Source of the DNA: Bacillota bacterium
GTDB lineage: Bacteria; Bacillota; DTU030; DUMP01
DNA length: 43,002 nt
Direction of reading: 5' to 3'
NCBI GenBank assembly: GCA_030153805.1
Contig: JASKLG010000004.1
Location: 1-43,002 of the forward strand
The notes under the pieces were generated by a model. It did not search any database. It was not told the origin of the DNA and saw only the letters and a list, made by a program, of their open reading frames with translations. The number at the start of each line of letters is the position of its first letter. Position 1 is the first letter of the stretch. The position numbers and the translations under genes are program-made. This document shows, in pieces, positions 562 through 41,639 of this stretch.

Positions 562-681
562 GCTCTGTCCCTCTTTCCTCTAACCTCAAAGGAAGTATAG
601 CGTAAAGCGGGTGAGGATGGAAGGCCGGTCGTTAACTTTTCTGGCATAAAGCTACATAAATTGGTTCAAACTACTTTTTGT

Positions 682-699
682 GTCTGAGATGGTTCAGAC
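682..699. promoter_or_regulatory. Inverted repeat GTCTGA-N6-TCAGAC just upstream of cphB
   Basis: Perfect 6-bp arms, 10 nt before the ATG at 710; overlaps direct repeats GGTTCAAAC (663) / GGTTCAGAC (691). Confidence 0.4.
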
Positions 700-709
700 G
701 GGAGGTACC

Positions 710-1540
710 ATGAGCGAGAAGGTAAAAGGGAATCTGGTGATCGTAGGCGGCGCGGAGGATAAGGAGGGCTCTTGCGTTATCCTGCGCCGCTTTCTCTCTC
801 TGGCCGGAGGAGAAAAGGCCAGGATAGCCGTACTTACTACCGCTACCGAAAAGGCAGAGGAGGTGGGCAGCGAGTATACCCGTCTTTTTTACCGCCTAGG
901 AGCGGCCGAGGTGCGACACCTGGACGTCGCGGACCGGGAAGCGGCCCGGGCCGAGGCGATGGTTGACTCTCTAAGCCGTGCCACCGGCATTTTTCTCACG
1001 GGCGGTGATCAGCTCCGGCTCACCAGTATTCTCGGCGGGACTCCCCTGGCCGGCGCCCTGCATGCGGCCGTCTGCCGGGGGGCAGTCCTGGCCGGAACCA
1101 GTGCCGGCGCCTCGGCCATGAGTGCCACTATGATTGTAGAAGGCCGCGACGAAAGCGCTCCCCGGCGTTCCATCATCGCCATGGCCCCGGGTCTGGGTTT
1201 CCTTAAAGAAGTAGTGGTCGATCAGCACTTCGCCGAACGCGGGCGCATCGGGCGGCTCTTGGCGGCCATCGCCGAAAATCCATATATACTAGGCCTTGGT
1301 CTGGATGAGGATACGGCCATCGTCTGCGAGCCGGGCGGAAGTTTTACCGTAATCGGGTCCGGGGCGTGCACGGTTGTGGACGGCGTAGGCATCCGGATGA
1401 GCAATATCTCCGAAAGCGCACCAGGCGAACCGCTCGTTCTCACCTACGTTACTCTGCACATTCTTCCGGCCGGTTACACCTATGATCTCAAACGCCGCCG
1501 GCCGGGAGTAGCTCCGTTTGAGGAAGACGAGGTTACGTGA
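710..1540 (+). CDS. cphB: Cyanophycinase
   Basis: MSEKVKGNLVIVGGAEDKEGSCVILRRF...LAGTSAGASAMS...: cyanophycinase/peptidase S51 family with GTSAG nucleophile motif; SD GGGAGG before ATG 710 (ORF track start 680 has no SD). Confidence 0.9.
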   Translation: MSEKVKGNLVIVGGAEDKEGSCVILRRFLSLAGGEKARIAVLTTATEKAEEVGSEYTRLFYRLGAAEVRHLDVADREAARAEAMVDSLSRATGIFLTGGDQLRLTSILGGTPLAGALHAAVCRGAVLAGTSAGASAMSATMIVEGRDESAPRRSIIAMAPGLGFLKEVVVDQHFAERGRIGRLLAAIAENPYILGLGLDEDTAIVCEPGGSFTVIGSGACTVVDGVGIRMSNISESAPGEPLVLTYVTLHILPAGYTYDLKRRRPGVAPFEEDEVT

Positions 1541-1589
1541 CGGGAAGAAATCTGCGTGAGGCCGAGAACTAAAATCCCGGGAGGAAAAC

Positions 1590-4232
1590 GTGAAAGGCAT
1601 GCGTATCTGCCAGCTTACCGTGTACACCGGCAAGAATGTTTACAGCCACCATCCGGTTATTAAGGTGATTGTCGATCTGGAAGAATACGCGGACAAAACC
1701 ACGGCCGAAATTCCCCTTTTCACCGACCGCCTTCTTTCGCTTCTCCCTTCCCTGCGCGACCACCATTGCTCGCGTGGCTACCCGGGAGGGTTCGTGGAGC
1801 GGTTGCACGAAGGAACCTATCTTGGGCATGTGGTGGAGCATGTGCTCTTGGAGCTTCAGACGTTGGCCGGGCTACCCGCCATCTATGGCAAGACGCGCGC
1901 CACGGGGAAACCGGGCATATATGAGATCATTGCCGAATACCGGGCGGCCGAAGCCGCCCGTGAAGCCGCCTACTCGGCCGTGGACTTGGTGAACTCTCTT
2001 CTTTCGGGCGGTGATCCACCGCGTGTGGAGGCTATAATTGCCCGGCTTCAGGAGCTTGCAGCCCGCTATGAATTGGGACCAAGCACGGCCGCTCTTGTAC
2101 GGGCGGCCCGGGAGCGGGGCCTTCCCGTACTGAGGTTGGATGATCGCAGTTTGGTTCAGATCGGCTACGGAGCACGGCAAAGGCGCATCGAGGCCGCTTT
2201 GACCTCCCTTACTTCCTGCTTGGCGGTGGACATTGCCGGGGATAAGTCACGCACCAAAGCCATTCTTTCTGCGGCCGGGATTGATGTTCCGCAAGGCTTA
2301 GTGGTCCGCTCAGAAGAAGAAGCCGTTTCTGCGCTTCGTGAACTGGGGGCTCCGGTAGTGGTCAAACCGGAGTGCGGCAATCAGGGCAAAGGGGTTTCCC
2401 TTAATCTTCAAAGCATAGCCGAGGTGCGGGCGGCCTACACTCTGGCGCGGAGCTGGGGACGGCGGGTGCTGGTGGAGAAATACATCGCCGGACGGCATCT
2501 ACGGGCTTTGGTGGTCAACGGGCGCGCAGTTGCGGTGGCCGAACGGCTTCCCGCTCACGTGGTGGGCGACGGGCGCCATAACTTGCGGGAGCTTGTGGAC
2601 ATTACCAACGCCGACCCGCGGCGCGGCGTGGGACACGAGAAGGTGCTCACCAAAATCAGCATCGACCCGGTGGTACTCATGGTTTTGGCCCGGCAGGGAT
2701 TGGACCTGGATTACGTGCCGGCGCCGGGAGAGATTGTGTATCTTCGAGATAATGCCAACCTCAGCACGGGCGGCACGGCGCGCGACCTAACGAACCGGGT
2801 AGCGCCCCACGTGAAAAGCATGGCGGAGCGCGCCGCCCGGGCTGTAGGCCTGGACGTTGCCGGGGTCGACCTGGTGGTTCCAGAACCTGAAGACCCTAGG
2901 AGCCCGGTTACGGTGATCGAAGTTAATGCCGCACCGGGCCTGAGGATGCACCTTGCTCCCAGCGAGGGCAGTCCGCAACCGGTTGCGGAAAAGATCATTT
3001 CCTACCTCTTTCCCTCGGGAGAGACCGGCCGGATTCCCATAGTTTCGGTGACCGGCACCAACGGCAAGACTACAACCGTACGCCTTATCGCCCACATGCT
3101 CTCCCTTACCGGTCGCAGAGTCGGACTGAGCTCAACCGACGGGGTGTTTATCGGCGGAGAATGCGTGTGGAAGGGGGACAATGCCGGCTACCGGGGAGCG
3201 CGCCTCATCCTGGAAGACCCCACCGTGGAAGCGGCAGTGCTGGAGACCGCCCGTGGCGGCCTCATTCGCGATGGCCTAGCTTATGACCTGGCCGATGTGG
3301 GTGTTATCACCAATATCAGCGAAGATCACCTGGGTCAGTACGGTATCGAAACCCTTGAAGACCTCGCCCATGTTAAGGCGTTGGTGGCGGAGGCCGTCCA
3401 CGACCACGGCGCGGCCGTGCTCAATGCCGACGATCTCCTGGTTGCCGGCCTCGCCGGGCGGGTGCGGTGCGAAGTTATCTTCTTCGGGCAGAGCGGCGAA
3501 AACGCCTTGATCCGGCACCACCTGACCAACGGCGGCCGGGCGGTATTCGTCCACGAAGGCAAAGTAGTTCTTGCCCGGGAAAAAGAAATCAAGCCTCTAT
3601 GCTCTGCACGGCGCATTCCCCTTACCCTGCGCGGGGCCGCCCGGCACAACCTGGCCAACGCGCTCGCGGCGACGGCCGCCGCCTGGGGGCTAGGCCTTCC
3701 GCCCAAAATCATTCGCCAGGGGCTTCTTACCTTCTATCCCAACCTCACCAGCAACCCGGGTCGCGTAAACCTGGTGGATGTGGCAGGAGTGCGTCTGCTC
3801 ATCGATTATGGCCATAACGTGGCCAGTTACCGCAGTACTCTGGAACTGGCACGAAACCTTACGAACCGCCGGCTCCTCGGAGTTATCGGTGTACCCGGAG
3901 ACAGGCCGGATGAACTGGTACGCCGGGTGGGGCGAACGGCGGCGGAGGGTTTCGACCTTCTTTTTATTAAGGAAGATGAGGACCGTCGCGGGCGTCAGGC
4001 TGGCGAAATCGCCGAACTTCTCCTGGCCGGCGCCCGGGAAGCAGGTTTTCCCAGTGAGCGCGCCCGAATCATCCTGAAAGAAGAAGAAGCCCTTCTGGCC
4101 GCTCTGGCCGAATGCCGCCGCGGCGACTTGGTGGTGATCTTTTACGAGAAGCTCGACCGTGTGCTCAAGGTAGTAAACGCCCTGCGGGCGGCCGCCATGC
4201 CTGCACCCCTGACCAATACCGGAGCCCGCTAG
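1590..4232 (+). CDS. cphA: Cyanophycin synthetase
   Basis: 880 aa with N-terminal cyanophycin synthetase domain, ATP-grasp domain and Mur-ligase domain (VTGTNGKTTT); adjacent to cphB. Confidence 0.93.
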   Translation: MKGMRICQLTVYTGKNVYSHHPVIKVIVDLEEYADKTTAEIPLFTDRLLSLLPSLRDHHCSRGYPGGFVERLHEGTYLGHVVEHVLLELQTLAGLPAIYGKTRATGKPGIYEIIAEYRAAEAAREAAYSAVDLVNSLLSGGDPPRVEAIIARLQELAARYELGPSTAALVRAARERGLPVLRLDDRSLVQIGYGARQRRIEAALTSLTSCLAVDIAGDKSRTKAILSAAGIDVPQGLVVRSEEEAVSALRELGAPVVVKPECGNQGKGVSLNLQSIAEVRAAYTLARSWGRRVLVEKYIAGRHLRALVVNGRAVAVAERLPAHVVGDGRHNLRELVDITNADPRRGVGHEKVLTKISIDPVVLMVLARQGLDLDYVPAPGEIVYLRDNANLSTGGTARDLTNRVAPHVKSMAERAARAVGLDVAGVDLVVPEPEDPRSPVTVIEVNAAPGLRMHLAPSEGSPQPVAEKIISYLFPSGETGRIPIVSVTGTNGKTTTVRLIAHMLSLTGRRVGLSSTDGVFIGGECVWKGDNAGYRGARLILEDPTVEAAVLETARGGLIRDGLAYDLADVGVITNISEDHLGQYGIETLEDLAHVKALVAEAVHDHGAAVLNADDLLVAGLAGRVRCEVIFFGQSGENALIRHHLTNGGRAVFVHEGKVVLAREKEIKPLCSARRIPLTLRGAARHNLANALAATAAAWGLGLPPKIIRQGLLTFYPNLTSNPGRVNLVDVAGVRLLIDYGHNVASYRSTLELARNLTNRRLLGVIGVPGDRPDELVRRVGRTAAEGFDLLFIKEDEDRRGRQAGEIAELLLAGAREAGFPSERARIILKEEEALLAALAECRRGDLVVIFYEKLDRVLKVVNALRAAAMPAPLTNTGAR

Positions 4233-21655: not shown

Positions 21656-22113
21656 TACCTTCCTATCCCCCCTATGTTCAAGGTTTGCTAAGATTAGCGT
21701 TTTCTCAGTTTATTTCTTTAGATTCGTTCTACTCTAGGAAGAATCCTCCCTGACTCCGTAGTAACTTTTCCAGGATGGCTCTCTTGGCGTGTGGCGAAGC
21801 CGGAGCAAAAAGTTCGGCGGCCGAGAATGATTTTCTGACTACATGTAGAATAAATTCAAGAGCAGCTAAGTGAGCGTTGAACTTTAAAAGTGTATCAATT
21901 GTACCTGGTGAATATTACCTAATGTGGGTAAATACCGAAAATGAGAACGCACCTATAAGGGCTCCGGCGAGCGGCGACGTGCGCTTTTAGGCGGACGGCT
22001 TCTGGAAGCGGCGCGGCTTATACCAACTGCACTGCATTGCCCAGAGGCACTCCTACATCATTATGGCTGGCGTAGGAGGAGCCGGCGGGGCTTTAGAGAC
22101 GGGGGGAGGCTTC

Positions 22114-23142
22114 TTGAGCGTAACCATCAAAGACATTGCCCGGCTGGCGGGCGTATCCCACACTACTGTGGCACGCGCCCTTAACGGGCAACCGGGGGTG
22201 AGCGAAGAGACTCGTGCGCGCATCGTGGAACTGGCCCAGCGGCTGCGCTACCAGTCCAACGCCCTGGCGCGGGGGCTGGTGACCCGCCGCAGCCAAAGCA
22301 TAGGCCTCTTAGTGCCTGATATGGCCAACCCGTTTTACGTGCAGGTGGCTAAGGGCATCGAGCAGGTGGCGGTTGAGGCCCACTACAGCTTAGTTATCTG
22401 CGACTCCGATCACGACCAGCAAAAGGAAATCAAGTACGTCCGTTTCCTCCGGGAAAAGCAGGTAGACGGCATGCTGGTGGTCCCGCTCCAGAAAGAAAAA
22501 CAGCATTTTGTAGAGCTCTGCCTGGATGGTTTTCCTTTCGTCTTTATTGACCGCTATTTTCCCGACCTTCCCGTCCCCGGCGTCGTGAGCGACAATTATG
22601 GCGGGGCCAAGAAGGCCGTAGAGCATCTCCTCCAGCTTGGTTACCGCAGGATTGCTTTTCTGGTAGGAACAAGAGGAGGGTATGCGGCAGCGGAACGCCT
22701 CCGCGCCTACTGTGACGCTCTTAAAGGGGCCGGTTTTCCGGTGCGTGAAGATTACGTGCTGGAGACGCGGGGCGGTTATGCCGACGGCTACCGCCGGGCG
22801 CAGGACCTACTGCACCTGTCCCCGCTTCCCGAGGCCGTTCTGGCCGCCAATGATATGGTAGCCCTGGGGGTCATGCGCTACTTTGCCGAGCGGGGAGTGC
22901 GCATCCCTGAGGAAATGGCGCTGGTCGGCTTTGACGATATTGATTTTGCCGGCATGTTACCTGTACCTCTTACCACCGTGCGCCAGCACCCCCGGGAAAT
23001 CGGCCGCAAGGCGGCAGAGCTTCTTCTTGATCTCGTTGAGGGCCGGCGTGAACGTCAAACTTCGGGACAGGCAATCGTATTCCCAACGGAATTGGTGGTG
23101 CGAAATTCGTGCGGCGTGCGCCGCGACGCACCGCAAAGATAA
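22114..23142 (+). CDS. LacI-family transcriptional regulator
   Basis: SVTIKDIARLAGVSHTTVARALNGQPGVSEETRARI HTH plus periplasmic-binding-like domain; GGGGGAGG SD before TTG 22114. Confidence 0.9.
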   Translation: MSVTIKDIARLAGVSHTTVARALNGQPGVSEETRARIVELAQRLRYQSNALARGLVTRRSQSIGLLVPDMANPFYVQVAKGIEQVAVEAHYSLVICDSDHDQQKEIKYVRFLREKQVDGMLVVPLQKEKQHFVELCLDGFPFVFIDRYFPDLPVPGVVSDNYGGAKKAVEHLLQLGYRRIAFLVGTRGGYAAAERLRAYCDALKGAGFPVREDYVLETRGGYADGYRRAQDLLHLSPLPEAVLAANDMVALGVMRYFAERGVRIPEEMALVGFDDIDFAGMLPVPLTTVRQHPREIGRKAAELLLDLVEGRRERQTSGQAIVFPTELVVRNSCGVRRDAPQR

Positions 23143-23146
23143 ATAA

Positions 23147-23171
23147 AAGGACCCGCCGTACGCGGGTCCTT
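23147..23171. terminator. Terminator hairpin between converging lacI-type and sleB-type genes
   Basis: AAGGACCCGC-CGTAC-GCGGGTCCTT. Confidence 0.65.
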
Positions 23172-23175
23172 GAAC

Positions 23176-23847
23176 TTATTTAGCGAAAACGTGGTTGCCG
23201 ATTTGTGTTACAACCGGCCGGGTATAAATCCACGGCGACCAGGCCGTAGCCGGATTGTAGAAGTAGAGGGCACCGCCTGTGGGGTCTACACCAGATAAGG
23301 CATCCAGAGCCGCCCGTATGCTTTCCTCGTCCGGTGCTTGGTAAAAAGTCCCGTTCATGATTGGCTCAAAGGCATCTGCTTCGTAAAGGACACCTTCTAA
23401 GGTGTTCGGGAAACGCGGATCGCGAAGGCGATTGAGAATCACGGCTCCTACAGCCACTTTACCTTCGTAGGGTTCTCCCTGTGCCTCGGCATGGATCATT
23501 TGGGCCAAGAGCTGTACTTCGCGGCTTGAGGCACGCGGCGTACCGCGGGAAGCCAGAGTCTGGGTAGCTTGATACGATTGGGAACTCCTGTAGGGAATGG
23601 TGAGCACGTCGCCCGGATAAATCCAATCCGTCCAGATGTTGTTGGCCCGGCGTAGCTCCTCCACAGTTACGCCGTATCTCTGACTGATAAACCACAGCGT
23701 GTCGCCCGGCTGCACGATGTACGCCTGAGCTGCGGCAGAAGCAGGCGCAACGAAAACTAGAAACGCAGCTAGGCCGGCGACAATACCTTTCCTTTCCAGC
23801 ATCAAGTTGAACTTCTCCGACATGAACCGTGTTACTTTTTGCAGCAT
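23176..23847 (-). CDS. LysM-domain cell wall hydrolase, SleB family
   Basis: Signal peptide, LysM (YIVQPGDTLWFISQRYGVTVEELRRANNI), C-terminal SleB hydrolase_2 domain (LLAQMIHAEAQGEPYEGKVAVGAVILNRL). Confidence 0.92.
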   Translation of the reverse strand: MLQKVTRFMSEKFNLMLERKGIVAGLAAFLVFVAPASAAAQAYIVQPGDTLWFISQRYGVTVEELRRANNIWTDWIYPGDVLTIPYRSSQSYQATQTLASRGTPRASSREVQLLAQMIHAEAQGEPYEGKVAVGAVILNRLRDPRFPNTLEGVLYEADAFEPIMNGTFYQAPDEESIRAALDALSGVDPTGGALYFYNPATAWSPWIYTRPVVTQIGNHVFAK

Positions 23848-23869
23848 GTGTATCGCTCCTTTCCTTCAC

Positions 23870-23984
23870 TCGCTTCCGGGGTTAGTTCCGGGTTAGGACC
23901 GAAGGATGTCCCTCTCCTTAAGGAGATTCACCCGCCGCAAGAGCGGCACTTCCCCCGTACCTCCCCAAAGGGAGGATTCAGCAA
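23870..23984 (-). promoter_or_regulatory. Cyclic di-AMP (ydaO/yuaA) riboswitch aptamer
   Basis: Minus strand TTGCTGAATCC..GGTACGGGGGAAGTGCC..GGCGGGTGAATCTCC..GGAGAGGGACATCCTTCGGTCCTAACCCGGAACTAACCCCGGAAGCGA carries the conserved GAAUCC / ACGGGGGAA / GGGUGAAUCU / AGGGA / ACCCG / CUAACCCCGGAAGC blocks and a P1 pairing TTGCT/AGCGA. Confidence 0.9.
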
Positions 23985-23986
23985 AG

Positions 23987-24016
23987 ACAACCCGACGCTG
24001 CCCGTCAAGTTGTCCA
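23987..24016 (-). other. Stem-loop directly 5' of the c-di-AMP aptamer
   Basis: GACAAC-TT-GACG-ggcag-CGTC-gg-GTTGTC. Confidence 0.5.
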
Positions 24017-24027
24017 AGGCTGTAACA

Positions 24028-24056
24028 ATGATAACAGATGAGGCCTGCCTTGTCAG
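24028..24056 (-). promoter_or_regulatory. Sigma-A-type promoter for the c-di-AMP riboswitch/sleB transcript
   Basis: Minus strand CTGACA-N17-TATCAT. Confidence 0.55.
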
Positions 24057-24187
24057 GGGCGAGGAAGCGAGAAGAGCCTGCCCGGTTAGCGGTAGTTGGG
24101 CGTGAGGTACAAGCAGCGGCCTGCGGCGCAACGAAGGATGTGCTTCCGGCAGATAAAAGGGCCCTGGGAGTAAACTCCTAAAAAATA

Positions 24188-24206
24188 AGGCCCTCTACCA
24201 GGGCCT
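24188..24206 (-). terminator. Terminator downstream of the 24205-24408 ORF
   Basis: Minus strand AGGCCCT-GGTAG-AGGGCCT-TATTTTTT. Confidence 0.65.
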
Positions 24207-24408
24207 AAAGGCTGAGGATCATTTGTACAGTTTCCCCGTCGTAGCCCACCATGACCTCCCGTACCAGATCCGGTTGGACTACTTGACTGAGTTTACTTCT
24301 GGAGAGTTGGAGGAGATCAGTAGCGGAGATGTCTTCCAAAAGCTGCCGCTCATGCTCTTCTACCGAGAGGGTCACCGAAATTAAACCCTTAACTGCGGTA
24401 AGCTCCAT
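24205..24408 (-). CDS. Small hypothetical protein (67 aa)
   Basis: MELTAVKGLISVTLSVEEHERQLLEDISATDLLQLSRSKLSQVVQPDLVREVMVGYDGETVQMILSL; followed by its own terminator. Confidence 0.5.
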   Translation of the reverse strand: MELTAVKGLISVTLSVEEHERQLLEDISATDLLQLSRSKLSQVVQPDLVREVMVGYDGETVQMILSL

Positions 24409-24436: not shown

Positions 24437-24667
24437 TTATTTTTTAGCTTCCGCTTCGCTCACCCCTCGAGTTTCATCGCCGGCCCCGGACATGTCGGCC
24501 TGCAGCTGGGCGATGAGTTCATCCAGCCTCAGAGAAAGCTCGTAAACAACCGGTGTGCGCAGTTGGGACGGATTGGAACTGACCAGGCGGTAGAGCTTTT
24601 CCCGGAGGGCTTCGATCTCTTGATCGAGCTCGCGCAGCCGCCGGGGCTTCTCACTCACAACCTTCAC
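24437..24667 (-). CDS. Spo0E-like aspartyl-phosphate phosphatase family small protein
   Basis: LREKLYRLVSSNPSQLRTPVVYELSLRLDELIAQLQ resembles the Spo0E helix hairpin with S-x-x-L-D motif; GTG start chosen after GGAAAGGGG. Confidence 0.6.
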   Translation of the reverse strand: MKVVSEKPRRLRELDQEIEALREKLYRLVSSNPSQLRTPVVYELSLRLDELIAQLQADMSGAGDETRGVSEAEAKK

Positions 24668-24774
24668 TCCGCTCGCCCCTTTCCTGCGATCTATGTCAAT
24701 ATTATACAATTATGGTAAGAAGAATCCAAGAGCCGGCATATAAAAACTTACTTAGAGGTTTGCTGGGACTAAAC

Positions 24775-38730: not shown

Positions 38731-39021
38731 ATGCCGGTAGTTAACGTGGCTTTGGAGGTTCTGCCGGTGGTGCCGGAAGAGCGCCTGTATCCGGTAGTGG
38801 ACAAGGTAATCGAACTTATTCAAGCTTCCGGTGTGAAGTACGAAGTTGGTCCCATGGAAACCACCATGGAAGGCGAACTGGACGAACTACTCGAACTCGT
38901 TAAGAGGGCTCAGGAGCTCTGTATTAAAGAGGGGGCAGCACGCGTTGTTTCCCTGGTCAAAATTGACTACAAGCCGGAAGGCGTTACCATGGCCGAAAAG
39001 GTCGGCAAATACCGGCGGTAA
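38731..39021 (+). CDS. Thiamine-binding protein family (MTH1187/YkoF-like)
   Basis: VVNVALEVLPVVPEERLYPVVDKVIELIQASGVKYEVGPMETTMEGELDELLELVKRAQELCIKEGAARVVSLVKIDYKPEG. Confidence 0.9.
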   Translation: MPVVNVALEVLPVVPEERLYPVVDKVIELIQASGVKYEVGPMETTMEGELDELLELVKRAQELCIKEGAARVVSLVKIDYKPEGVTMAEKVGKYRR

Positions 39022-39025
39022 CTGG

Positions 39026-39763
39026 GTGGCGGCGGCATCTTTTTGCTCTTTTCTCCTCCTTTGGGAGGGAACCGTACGCTTTTTCAAGATCGAGGCGTGG
39101 CTGCTGCCGGCACCTACGGCCGTGCTTGCCGCTTTGGGCGAAGGCTGGCCCCTTTTTTGGAAGCACACGTTTGTCACCTTATATGAGTCCCTCATGGGCT
39201 TCGTTTTGGCTGTGGCGCTGGCCCTCGCCCTGGCCTTAACCATGGACGCCCTGCCTTTAGTGCGCCGGGCGCTGTACCCCCTTTTAGTTACGACGCAAAC
39301 CATACCGATAATCTCGGTGGCGCCGCTTTTTCTCATTTGGTTCGGCTACGGGCTTCTGCCAAAAGTACTGGTAGTGGTTTTGGTATGCTTCTTTCCTGTG
39401 GCGGTAAGCCTTCTCGAGAGCCTGGCGGCGGTGGATCCCGATCTCATCGATCTTCTCCGCTCTATGGGGGCGGGCCGGATGGCCCGGCTCCGGCTGGTAA
39501 AGTTGCCGGCGGCCCTCCCGGGCCTTTTGTCCGGGTTAAAGATCGCGGCCAGTTACAGCATAATGGGAGCGGTCATCGGCGAGTGGCTGGGCGCCCAGGC
39601 AGGTCTGGGCTACTACATGACCCTTTCGCAGCGCTCCTTTGCCACGCCGCGGGTTTTCGCCATAATACTGATTATCACGGTTCTCAGCCTGGCTTGGTTT
39701 AAAGTAATTGAGATAGCTGAGCGCCTTATTATGCCCTGGCAGCGACTTAGAAGTGAAGAATAA
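39026..39763 (+). CDS. ABC transporter permease for thiamine/HMP precursor (ThiX-like)
   Basis: GTG 39026 chosen over ORF-track start 38846 (out of frame through the upstream gene); BPD permease motif EWLGAQAGLGYYMTLSQRSFATPRVFAI. Confidence 0.88.
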   Translation: MAAASFCSFLLLWEGTVRFFKIEAWLLPAPTAVLAALGEGWPLFWKHTFVTLYESLMGFVLAVALALALALTMDALPLVRRALYPLLVTTQTIPIISVAPLFLIWFGYGLLPKVLVVVLVCFFPVAVSLLESLAAVDPDLIDLLRSMGAGRMARLRLVKLPAALPGLLSGLKIAASYSIMGAVIGEWLGAQAGLGYYMTLSQRSFATPRVFAIILIITVLSLAWFKVIEIAERLIMPWQRLRSEE

Positions 39764-39782
39764 CCTTGAGGGGGAAGATTCA

Positions 39783-40793
39783 ATGAAAAAAGTCTTTCTA
39801 GTGCTTTTGGCTCTATCTGTGGCTGCGGTCTTGCTCGGCGGCTGCAGCTCGCAGGCGGGTGGTGACAAGACGGCGCCGGCAGCCGAGGCGCCCGAGGAAC
39901 TAACCAAAGCTACGGTTCTCCTCGATTGGACGCCCAACACCAACCATACGGGGCTTTATGTAGCCCGAGATAAAGGCTTTTACAAAGAAGAAGGCCTGGA
40001 CTTGGAAATCGTTGGACCGATGGAGGGCAGTGTGGCCCAGCTCGTAGCCGCCGGTAAAGCCGACTTCGGTGTGAGCTACCAAGAAGAAGTGACCAACGCC
40101 CGTGTGGCCGGTATCCCGGTGAAGGCCATTGCCGCCATTATCCAGCACAATACTTCCGGTTTTGCCTCGCCTGTAGAGAAGGGCATTGAAACCCCGAAGG
40201 ATTTCGAGGGCAAAAAGTATGGCGGCTGGGGTTCACCTATGGAAGAGGCCATGATCAAAGCCCTGATGGAAAAATACGGAGCCGACTTCCAAAAAGTGCA
40301 AATGATCAACATCGGCTCGGCGGACTTTTTTAGCAGCGTAAAAAAGGATATAGACTTTGCCTGGATCTATTGGGGCTGGACCGGTATCGAGGCAGAACTG
40401 CGCGGGATGAAGCTCAACTTCATTAAACTGGTGGACGAAGACCCGGCCCTCGACTACTACACCCCGGTTCTCATCGCCAGCGAGAAAACTCTGGCCGAAA
40501 AGCCAGAGCTGGTAAGAAAGTTCCTAGCGGCTACCAGCCGCGGTTACCAGTTTGCCATCGCTCAACCGGAGGAGGCGGCCAATATCCTGACCGGTGCCGT
40601 ACCAGAGCTGAACAAGGAGCTGGTGCTGGCCAGCCAGAAGTACCTGGCCAAGGAATATCAGGCCGATGCGCCGCGCTGGGGCGAGATGAAGGCGAGTGTC
40701 TGGAAAAAGTACGCCGATTGGATGTATGAGCGCAAGCTCATTGAAAAAAATATCGACCCCGAGGCGGCTTTTACCAATGAGTTCCTGCCCTAA
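39783..40793 (+). CDS. ABC transporter substrate-binding lipoprotein, NMT1/THI5-like (ThiY-like)
   Basis: Lipobox LLGGCSS; TKATVLLDWTPNTNHTGLYVARDKGFYKEEGLDLEIV. Confidence 0.92.
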   Translation: MKKVFLVLLALSVAAVLLGGCSSQAGGDKTAPAAEAPEELTKATVLLDWTPNTNHTGLYVARDKGFYKEEGLDLEIVGPMEGSVAQLVAAGKADFGVSYQEEVTNARVAGIPVKAIAAIIQHNTSGFASPVEKGIETPKDFEGKKYGGWGSPMEEAMIKALMEKYGADFQKVQMINIGSADFFSSVKKDIDFAWIYWGWTGIEAELRGMKLNFIKLVDEDPALDYYTPVLIASEKTLAEKPELVRKFLAATSRGYQFAIAQPEEAANILTGAVPELNKELVLASQKYLAKEYQADAPRWGEMKASVWKKYADWMYERKLIEKNIDPEAAFTNEFLP

Positions 40794-40905
40794 TAAAAAT
40801 CCCCATAACACTGGCAGCGCTTCTCATTGTCCCTGAGGCCCAAGCGCCAGGCCTTCTTGTCATAACCGGTATCGCCGCTTTCACACCGGAAGGCAGGGAG
40901 ATAGC

Positions 40906-41639
40906 TTGCTTAAAATCCAGGCCACCAACCTAAAAAAACGTACGGCAACTTACTTACCCTGGACGATGTGAGTGTGAGCTTGTCTGAAGGAGAATTTGTC
41001 GCCATTATCGGCCCGAGCGGCTGCGGTAAGAGTACCCTTTTCAACATCATCTCCGGGCTACATTTGCCGGATGCCGGCAAGGTCTTCATCGACGGCGAGG
41101 ACTACACCGGTCGCACAGGGCGGGTAAGCTATATGCACCAGAAAGACCTCTTACTTCCCTGGCGCACTATCCTGGATAACGTCTGCCTTCCGCTTATAGT
41201 AAAAGGCCTGAGCCTAAAGGAGGCGCGCGCTCGGGCCAGGCCGCACTTCGAAGCCTTTGGTCTGGCCGGCTTTGAGGAGCATTACCCGGCGCAGCTCTCC
41301 GGCGGCATGCGCCAGCGGGCGGCACTTTTGCGCACGTACCTTTTCGCCAGCGACATCATGCTCCTCGATGAACCTTTTGGTGCTCTGGATGCCCTGACGC
41401 GCCGAAAGATGCAGTTCTGGTTGCTGTCGACATTGAGCAGGTACCAGACCTCGGTGCTCCTCATAACCCACGACGTTGAGGAAGCTCTTCTGCTTGCCGA
41501 TCGGGTGTATGTGCTGAGCGAGCGGCCGGCGAGGGTGAAGCTGGAACTTAAGGTAGACTTGCCGCGCCCGCGCTCAGAAAAGACGCTGACGGCGCCGGCT
41601 TTTGTTGCCTTAAAACGCCGGCTTCTTGAGATCCTATGA
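40906..41639 (+). CDS. ABC transporter ATP-binding protein (ThiZ-like) with an N-terminal frame interruption at an A7 tract
   Basis: SD GGGAG then TTG 40906: LLKIQATNLKK | TYGNLLTLDDVSVSLSEGEFVAIIGPSGCGKSTL; the frame changes by -1 at AAAAAAA 40932-40938. Walker A/B, LSGGMRQRAALLR signature. Confidence 0.88.

Follow-up and report, generated by a model that had tools for sequence, protein, structure and literature searches.

The window analysed here, a 43,002-nucleotide stretch of a draft genome of the phylum Bacillota, includes a c-di-AMP (ydaO/yuaA) riboswitch directly upstream of a gene for a cell wall hydrolase. The aptamer abuts the Shine-Dalgarno (SD) sequence of this gene. According to the original prediction, P1 closes upon ligand binding and thereby occludes the SD. 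The features of the locus are listed in Table 1.

Table 1. Coordinates of the riboswitch unit within the window.
Feature	Position	Strand	Basis
c-di-AMP (ydaO/yuaA) riboswitch	23856..23993	-	RF00379, 57.9 bits
P1 5' arm (core UGCU 23983-23980, extended UUUGCU)	23980..23985	-	RF00379 alignment
P1 3' arm (core AGCG 23874-23871, extended AGCGAG)	23869..23874	-	RF00379 alignment
Aptamer hairpin loop UCCUUCG, pseudoknot 5' strand	23900..23906	-	inverted repeat; invariant in orthologues; family covariation
Pseudoknot 3' strand UGAAGGA, first copy of tandem AAGGA-AAGGA	23862..23868	-	inverted repeat; orthologues; family covariation
SD GGAAAGGAG, 8 nt before ATG	23856..23864	-	direct reading
Secreted LysM + Hydrolase_2 (SleB-type) cell wall hydrolase, 223 aa	23176..23847	-	Pfam
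Putative promoter CTGACA-N17-TATCAT (-35 24056-24051, -10 24033-24028, TG upstream of -10)	24028..24056	-	pattern scan; kept in four orthologous leaders
5' stem-loop GGACAACUUGACG-GGCAG-CGUCGGGUUGUCU, 13 bp, near predicted 5' end, abuts P1	23985..24015	-	fold and orthologues
Terminator-like hairpin, hydrolase gene end (monocistronic unit)	23147..23171	-	hairpin scan
Terminator-like hairpin of upstream gene, setting that gene apart from the riboswitch unit	24188..24206	-	hairpin scan

The aptamer is matched by the RF00379 covariance model over its full length (model positions 1-134) with 57.9 bits and an E value of 5.4e-11, against a gathering score of 38 bits, and it is the only such match in the genome (a 1.7-Mb draft, about 90% complete). 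The core blocks GCnGAAU, CGGGGGA, GGGUGAAU, AACCC, and CUAACCnCGnAnGCG are present in the RF00379 alignment and in the orthologues. The identification of a c-di-AMP riboswitch from its conserved blocks on the minus strand is thus borne out by the covariance search that had been proposed as its check. The ORF directly downstream is the expected LysM/SleB hydrolase, with Pfam matches to PF07486 (1.7e-32) and PF01476 (1.5e-17), and its start codon lies 23 nt past P1. A CdaA-type c-di-AMP synthase of 271 amino acids is encoded in the same genome, adjoining a YbbR/CdaR-like ORF that is named from its own sequence. The locus itself is an ordinary added example of a known riboswitch type.

The predicted promoter is sigma-A-like and would place the transcript start at about 24021. 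This exact pattern has a single match in the window, and 100 shuffles gave none (a generic sigma-70 scan of 3 kb would by itself give 1.1 matches by chance); CTGACA-N17-TA(T/A)CAT stands at the equivalent place in all four orthologous leaders. The additional stem-loop 5' of the aptamer retains its outer eight pairs in the four orthologues, with one pair varying as U-G, C-G, or U-A; its nearness to the predicted transcript start suggests a role in 5'-end protection or P1 insulation. Between the aptamer and the 3' end of the hydrolase gene, the hairpin scan found no terminator-like or U-tract hairpin. The intrinsic terminator of a terminator-type ydaO platform is absent between aptamer and gene, and the idea of one concealed within the leader or the first part of the gene was rejected. 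Three ORFs overlapping the riboswitch (23459-23869 and 23928-24131 on the minus strand, 23839-24105 on the plus strand) lack Pfam matches and were likewise rejected as genuine genes. In all of these respects (promoter, extra stem-loop, missing terminator, and misleading ORFs) the original prediction agrees with the present analysis.

Two ORFs lie between mfd and the riboswitch unit: a Spo0E-like ORF (24437-24709, minus strand) and a 67-amino-acid ORF with no Pfam match (24205-24408, minus strand). The order mfd, Spo0E-like ORF, small ORF, riboswitch, and hydrolase is also found at loci L003 and L005. A LacI-type gene (22063-23142) lies between the hydrolase and a sigma-54 activator in the window and is missing there in L003 and L005. 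Elsewhere in the window, a TPP riboswitch (RF00059, 38546-38651, plus strand, 58.8 bits with a gathering score of 54.3), in whose alignment most of the outer P1 pairs are non-standard, precedes genes for an ABC permease, an NMT1-like binding protein, and an ATPase (38846-41639) that probably serve thiamin-precursor uptake. Positions 680-4232 of the plus strand hold two neighboring ORFs that, judged from sequence alone, resemble cyanophycinase and cyanophycin synthetase.

The 3' arm of P1 ends at 23871 (core pairs) or 23869 (with two extra pairs), which leaves a gap of 6 or 4 nt to the SD; the originally claimed spacer of 5 nt is a fair estimate of this length. However, the nucleotides of the spacer belong to the 3' strand of a pseudoknot that the original prediction missed. 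The loop UCCUUCG is complementary to the tail UGAAGGA, and this pairing is taken to be the loop/3'-tail pseudoknot known for RF00379 aptamers (the crystallised RNA has ACUCCUUCG and CGAAGGAG at the corresponding places, and a stable pseudoknot was described; PMC5393176). In the window lineage, the tail GAAGGAAAGGAG holds two tandem copies of AAGGA, of which the first pairs with the loop and the second is the SD core. The SD includes an 8-nt match to the anti-SD (GAAAGGAG, 23863-23856). Positions 23863-23862, and also 23864 if the helix is extended, are shared between the SD and the predicted pseudoknot strand, so that the two overlap, whereas P1 has no base in common with the SD. Since the strict overlap is only 2 nt and the SD core AAGGAG lies outside the pseudoknot, occlusion would be largely steric. 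In the window lineage the pseudoknot/SD arrangement thus has a weak-overlap form.

Computed helix energies of -8.0 kcal/mol for the pseudoknot and -10.3 kcal/mol for SD:anti-SD make competition between the two helices plausible. A search of the draft assembly for the 16S 3' end gave no match, the rRNA probably being missing, and the anti-SD sequence used for the pairing is presumed from general knowledge. SD accessibility from nested folding, a method blind to pseudoknots, differs between orthologues and was set aside. Two other pairings were considered and rejected. In one, the P4 5' arm would sequester the SD (CUCCUU 23925-23920 with AAGGAG 23861-23856); this would break the aptamer, and the match is lost in orthologues that have CUCUU or UUUCC. 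The other, a perfect 9-nt inverted repeat that joins the P1 3' arm (23877-23869) to 24071-24063, reaches to the 5' side of the promoter, is missing from the orthologues, and is taken as chance.

RF00379 is carried by five of the eight genomes of the family. Besides the window genome, the orthologous leader is found in two genomes of the same genus (G001 and G002) and in one of another genus (G006), with RF00379 scores of 50-58 bits in this lineage; the leader in the public record JASKKP010000004.1 aligns identically to that of G002. The four leaders show no difference between CUAACC and the CG that follows the SD (CUAACCCCGGAAGCGAGUGAAGGAAAGGAGCG), nor from GGGACAUCCUUCGG into UAACC. The hydrolase coding sequences diverge immediately past this conserved leader (the ORF was read directly for G000, G001, G002, and G006). 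All four orthologues have the same pseudoknot sequence, which therefore does not covary within the window lineage. A genome of a third genus (G003) has a canonical aptamer of 96.7 bits, followed by a terminator and then by a glycine-betaine binding protein (OpuAC).

For covariation across the phylum, loops and tails were exchanged among the 75 top-scoring RF00379 loci in 500 swaps. Own pairs averaged 15.4 and swapped pairs 13.1, with a maximum of 13.8 in the swaps; the tail 3' of P1 is thus part of the aptamer, not free spacer. Terminator-like hairpins lie near or past the aptamer in 62 of these 75 loci, and the genes behind terminator-type loci are radical-SAM/aminomutase, octopine-dehydrogenase-like, OpuAC, TrkH, and similar genes. 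Among the 75, a start codon within 23 nt of P1 is found only in the four window orthologues and in L127, a locus of another family. L127 (RF00379, 105.9 bits) resembles the window leader in the absence of a terminator, in a start codon 19 nt past P1, and in its target, a wall hydrolase; it differs in the hydrolase domain (LysM with NlpC/P60), in a TTG start, and in a pseudoknot that stops just short of the SD. Downstream of its LysM/NlpC gene lies a NiCo riboswitch (RF02683, L127:1128-1210, 51.8 bits).

The pattern of an aptamer, a purine tract, and an ATG was then searched in 399 genomes, with the ORFs checked and most loci also checked against RF00379. Together with L127, this yielded 35 abutting leaders under 19 family labels, the four window orthologues counted in. 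All 35 precede secreted wall proteins, as judged by domain or by start and layout (LysM in 17, NlpC/P60 in 15, Hydrolase_2 in 14, 3D in 1, and CAP in 1). The original prediction implied more of an isolated case than this: across 19 families, the arrangement is repeated in front of wall-enzyme genes. In 34 of the 35 leaders, at least 3 nt of the SD are shared with the 3' strand of the pseudoknot (e.g., CACCUUUU with GAAAGGUG in L223 and UACCCUUC with GGAGGGUA in L240), an overlap that is partly expected because both helices are sought in one short purine-rich tail. The swap test is for this reason the stronger evidence: own pairs reached 14.4 and swapped pairs 12.5 among the 35 leaders, and none of 1000 swaps attained the own value. 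By this measure, loop and SD tract covary in abutting leaders. At L223, where the abutting riboswitch (1394-1530) precedes a wall-enzyme gene, an OLE RNA (RF01071, 512-1091, 423.8 bits) lies about 300 nt upstream.

Because the first comparison group had been selected by score, a second sample was drawn as two sets by core pattern only, stratified by CAA/CAG, so that no prevalence can be read from it; it has several loci in common with the first sample and is not fully independent of it. Among its 93 loci with a clear ORF, the start codon (chosen by script, and uncertain at L334) lies within 30 nt of P1 in 32 and farther away in 61. Wall proteins follow all 32 abutting aptamers (NlpC/P60 in 20, LysM in 17, Hydrolase_2 in 10, and 3D in 1) versus four of the 61 distal ones (three with 3D/G5/DUF348 domains and one CAP), a contrast with a phylogeny-uncorrected Fisher p of about 7e-21.

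The window aptamer departs from the common form just before CUAACC, where it has GGAA in place of GUCAG; CAG at this place, with CC after CGGGGGA, is common in the family and does not define it. The window lineage has GAA or AAA before CUAACC, lacks the CC, and carries an extra CCGC/GCGG hairpin. In the score-selected sample, CAG is present in 71 of 71 loci outside the lineage. In the second sample, CAA precedes CUAACC in 23 of 32 abutting versus four of 61 distal aptamers, and the CAA-bearing abutting aptamers have lost the CC as well. CAA with missing CC thus looks like a coupled structural subtype, with which the window lineage is grouped, and the CAA/CAG difference was rejected as proof of an altered ligand. 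At another locus, L283, a CAA-type c-di-AMP aptamer is followed immediately by an apparent second aptamer (...GCCGAAUCCCAGUCAACUGGGUACGGG...) and then by a CAP-domain protein, a possible tandem arrangement.

The favored reading of the window leader, with a probability of about 70%, is a translational OFF switch in which c-di-AMP locks P1 and the pseudoknot and keeps the 30S subunit out; ligand binding, direction, and the effect on translation are those that we infer for this RNA. The leader would be transcribed from its own sigma-A-like promoter, c-di-AMP made by CdaA would bind the ydaO-type aptamer, and P1 would close. The loop would dock on the UGAAGGA just 3' of P1, and the docked pseudoknot, whose stability here presumably depends on the ligand, would take two to three SD nucleotides and fill the space directly 5' of the SD. 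The 30S subunit would be unable to settle, and the LysM/Hydrolase_2 wall enzyme would not be made until c-di-AMP falls, the pseudoknot opens, and translation begins. From the original claim, control at translation rather than by a terminator has the support of the sequence and of the 35 leaders; as the element that would occlude the SD, P1 alone is incomplete, and it is the pseudoknot strand that overlaps the SD.

The main rival is transcription attenuation without a canonical terminator, in which the bound aptamer stops or pauses RNA polymerase or exposes untranslated mRNA to Rho. Such control is reported for rpfA of Streptomyces coelicolor and S. venezuelae, a wall hydrolase gene with a ydaO leader that lacks a canonical terminator (PMC10117811, PMC9960051). 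In the window leader and its gene, no U-tract hairpin lies between the aptamer and the gene end, and the invariant SD-proximal block and the covarying loop/SD pairing of the 35 leaders fit control of translation, not termination; attenuation is accordingly unlikely. It is quite unlikely that closure of P1 by itself hides the SD, with the pseudoknot a merely constitutive structural part. Such a reading would suit the 4-6 nt between P1 and the SD and the presence of the pseudoknot throughout the family, including terminator-type members, which means that the pseudoknot is not by itself an expression platform. Yet for the majority of abutting leaders this strand is no spacer but coincides with the SD, and in the window leader the SD shares bases with the pseudoknot and none with P1.

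The missing CAG and CC could weaken c-di-AMP binding by the window aptamer or, as a variant aptamer, suit it to another ligand, and the uniform CAG of the score-selected loci outside the lineage and the low scores within it speak for such a change. This is nevertheless very unlikely as an account of the locus: the coupled loss is common, being found in 23 of 32 abutting aptamers of other lineages, those scanned score well over the RF00379 cut-off, two genera of the family have kept the core, and CdaA is encoded in the genome. That the leader is an ON switch, or a riboswitch that has decayed and lost its function, is extremely improbable. The OFF direction is one that we infer for the window leader by analogy with other family members, but PMC9960051 describes c-di-AMP riboswitches as OFF switches, the same direction would follow from ligand-stabilised pairing over the SD, and the leader is conserved in four genomes.

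The translational OFF switch proposed here can be compared with several known systems. By covariance model, the window leader shares its aptamer with the ydaO/yuaA riboswitches (B. subtilis ydaO/kimA; T. tengcongensis, structure 4QLM), and it shares the loop/tail pairing motif with the crystallised RNA (PMC5393176). In contrast to these, it has no terminator, its pseudoknot 3' strand enters the SD, GGAA replaces GUCAG, and a 4-bp hairpin is added between CGGGGGA and GGGUGAAU. The one experimental precedent found in the literature for translational ydaO control of a wall-enzyme gene is nlpC of C. glutamicum, where the riboswitch changes the protein level and not the transcript level, and where pairing of CTCC with GGAG of the ribosome binding site (RBS) was proposed (PMC9960051). 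This leader, likened to the window leader from its published description, is of the ydaO type, precedes a wall hydrolase, lacks a terminator, and is a translational OFF switch by experiment (PMC9960051); it belongs to an Actinobacterium, and its target is NlpC rather than a LysM/Hydrolase_2 protein. The ydaO-like riboswitch of Streptomyces rpfA also precedes a secreted wall hydrolase without a canonical terminator, with transcription termination reported (PMC10117811, PMC9960051), unlike the proposal for the window leader. A review places ydaO among the docking riboswitches able to occlude the RBS (PMC10907184). In preQ1-III and other translational preQ1 riboswitches, a ligand-stabilised loop/tail pseudoknot lies beside or over the SD, as proposed for the window leader (PMC10907184, PMC9410914), and a preQ1 riboswitch with only partial SD overlap controls 30S binding (PMC9410914). 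The aptamer and ligand of the preQ1 riboswitches are unrelated to those of the window leader.

C-di-AMP connects turgor with the cell wall, and if it directly switched translation initiation of a wall-cutting enzyme, the route from this signal to the control of lysis would be short. Within the phylum, aptamers that sit on a start codon precede wall enzymes almost exclusively, and the SD makes up half of the aptamer pseudoknot. This provides a concrete rule, open to testing, to tell which c-di-AMP riboswitches control translation, together with a structural reason, and the rule agrees with C. glutamicum nlpC. The evidence leans toward two kinds of c-di-AMP riboswitches in the phylum: a terminator type for transporter, osmolyte, and metabolic genes, and a translational type, with the pseudoknot on the SD and often with CAA and no CC, for secreted peptidoglycan hydrolases, of which the window leader would be a weak-overlap form. 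It is this wider proposed split, with translational switches for wall hydrolases and terminator switches for transport and metabolism, that deserves to be pursued.
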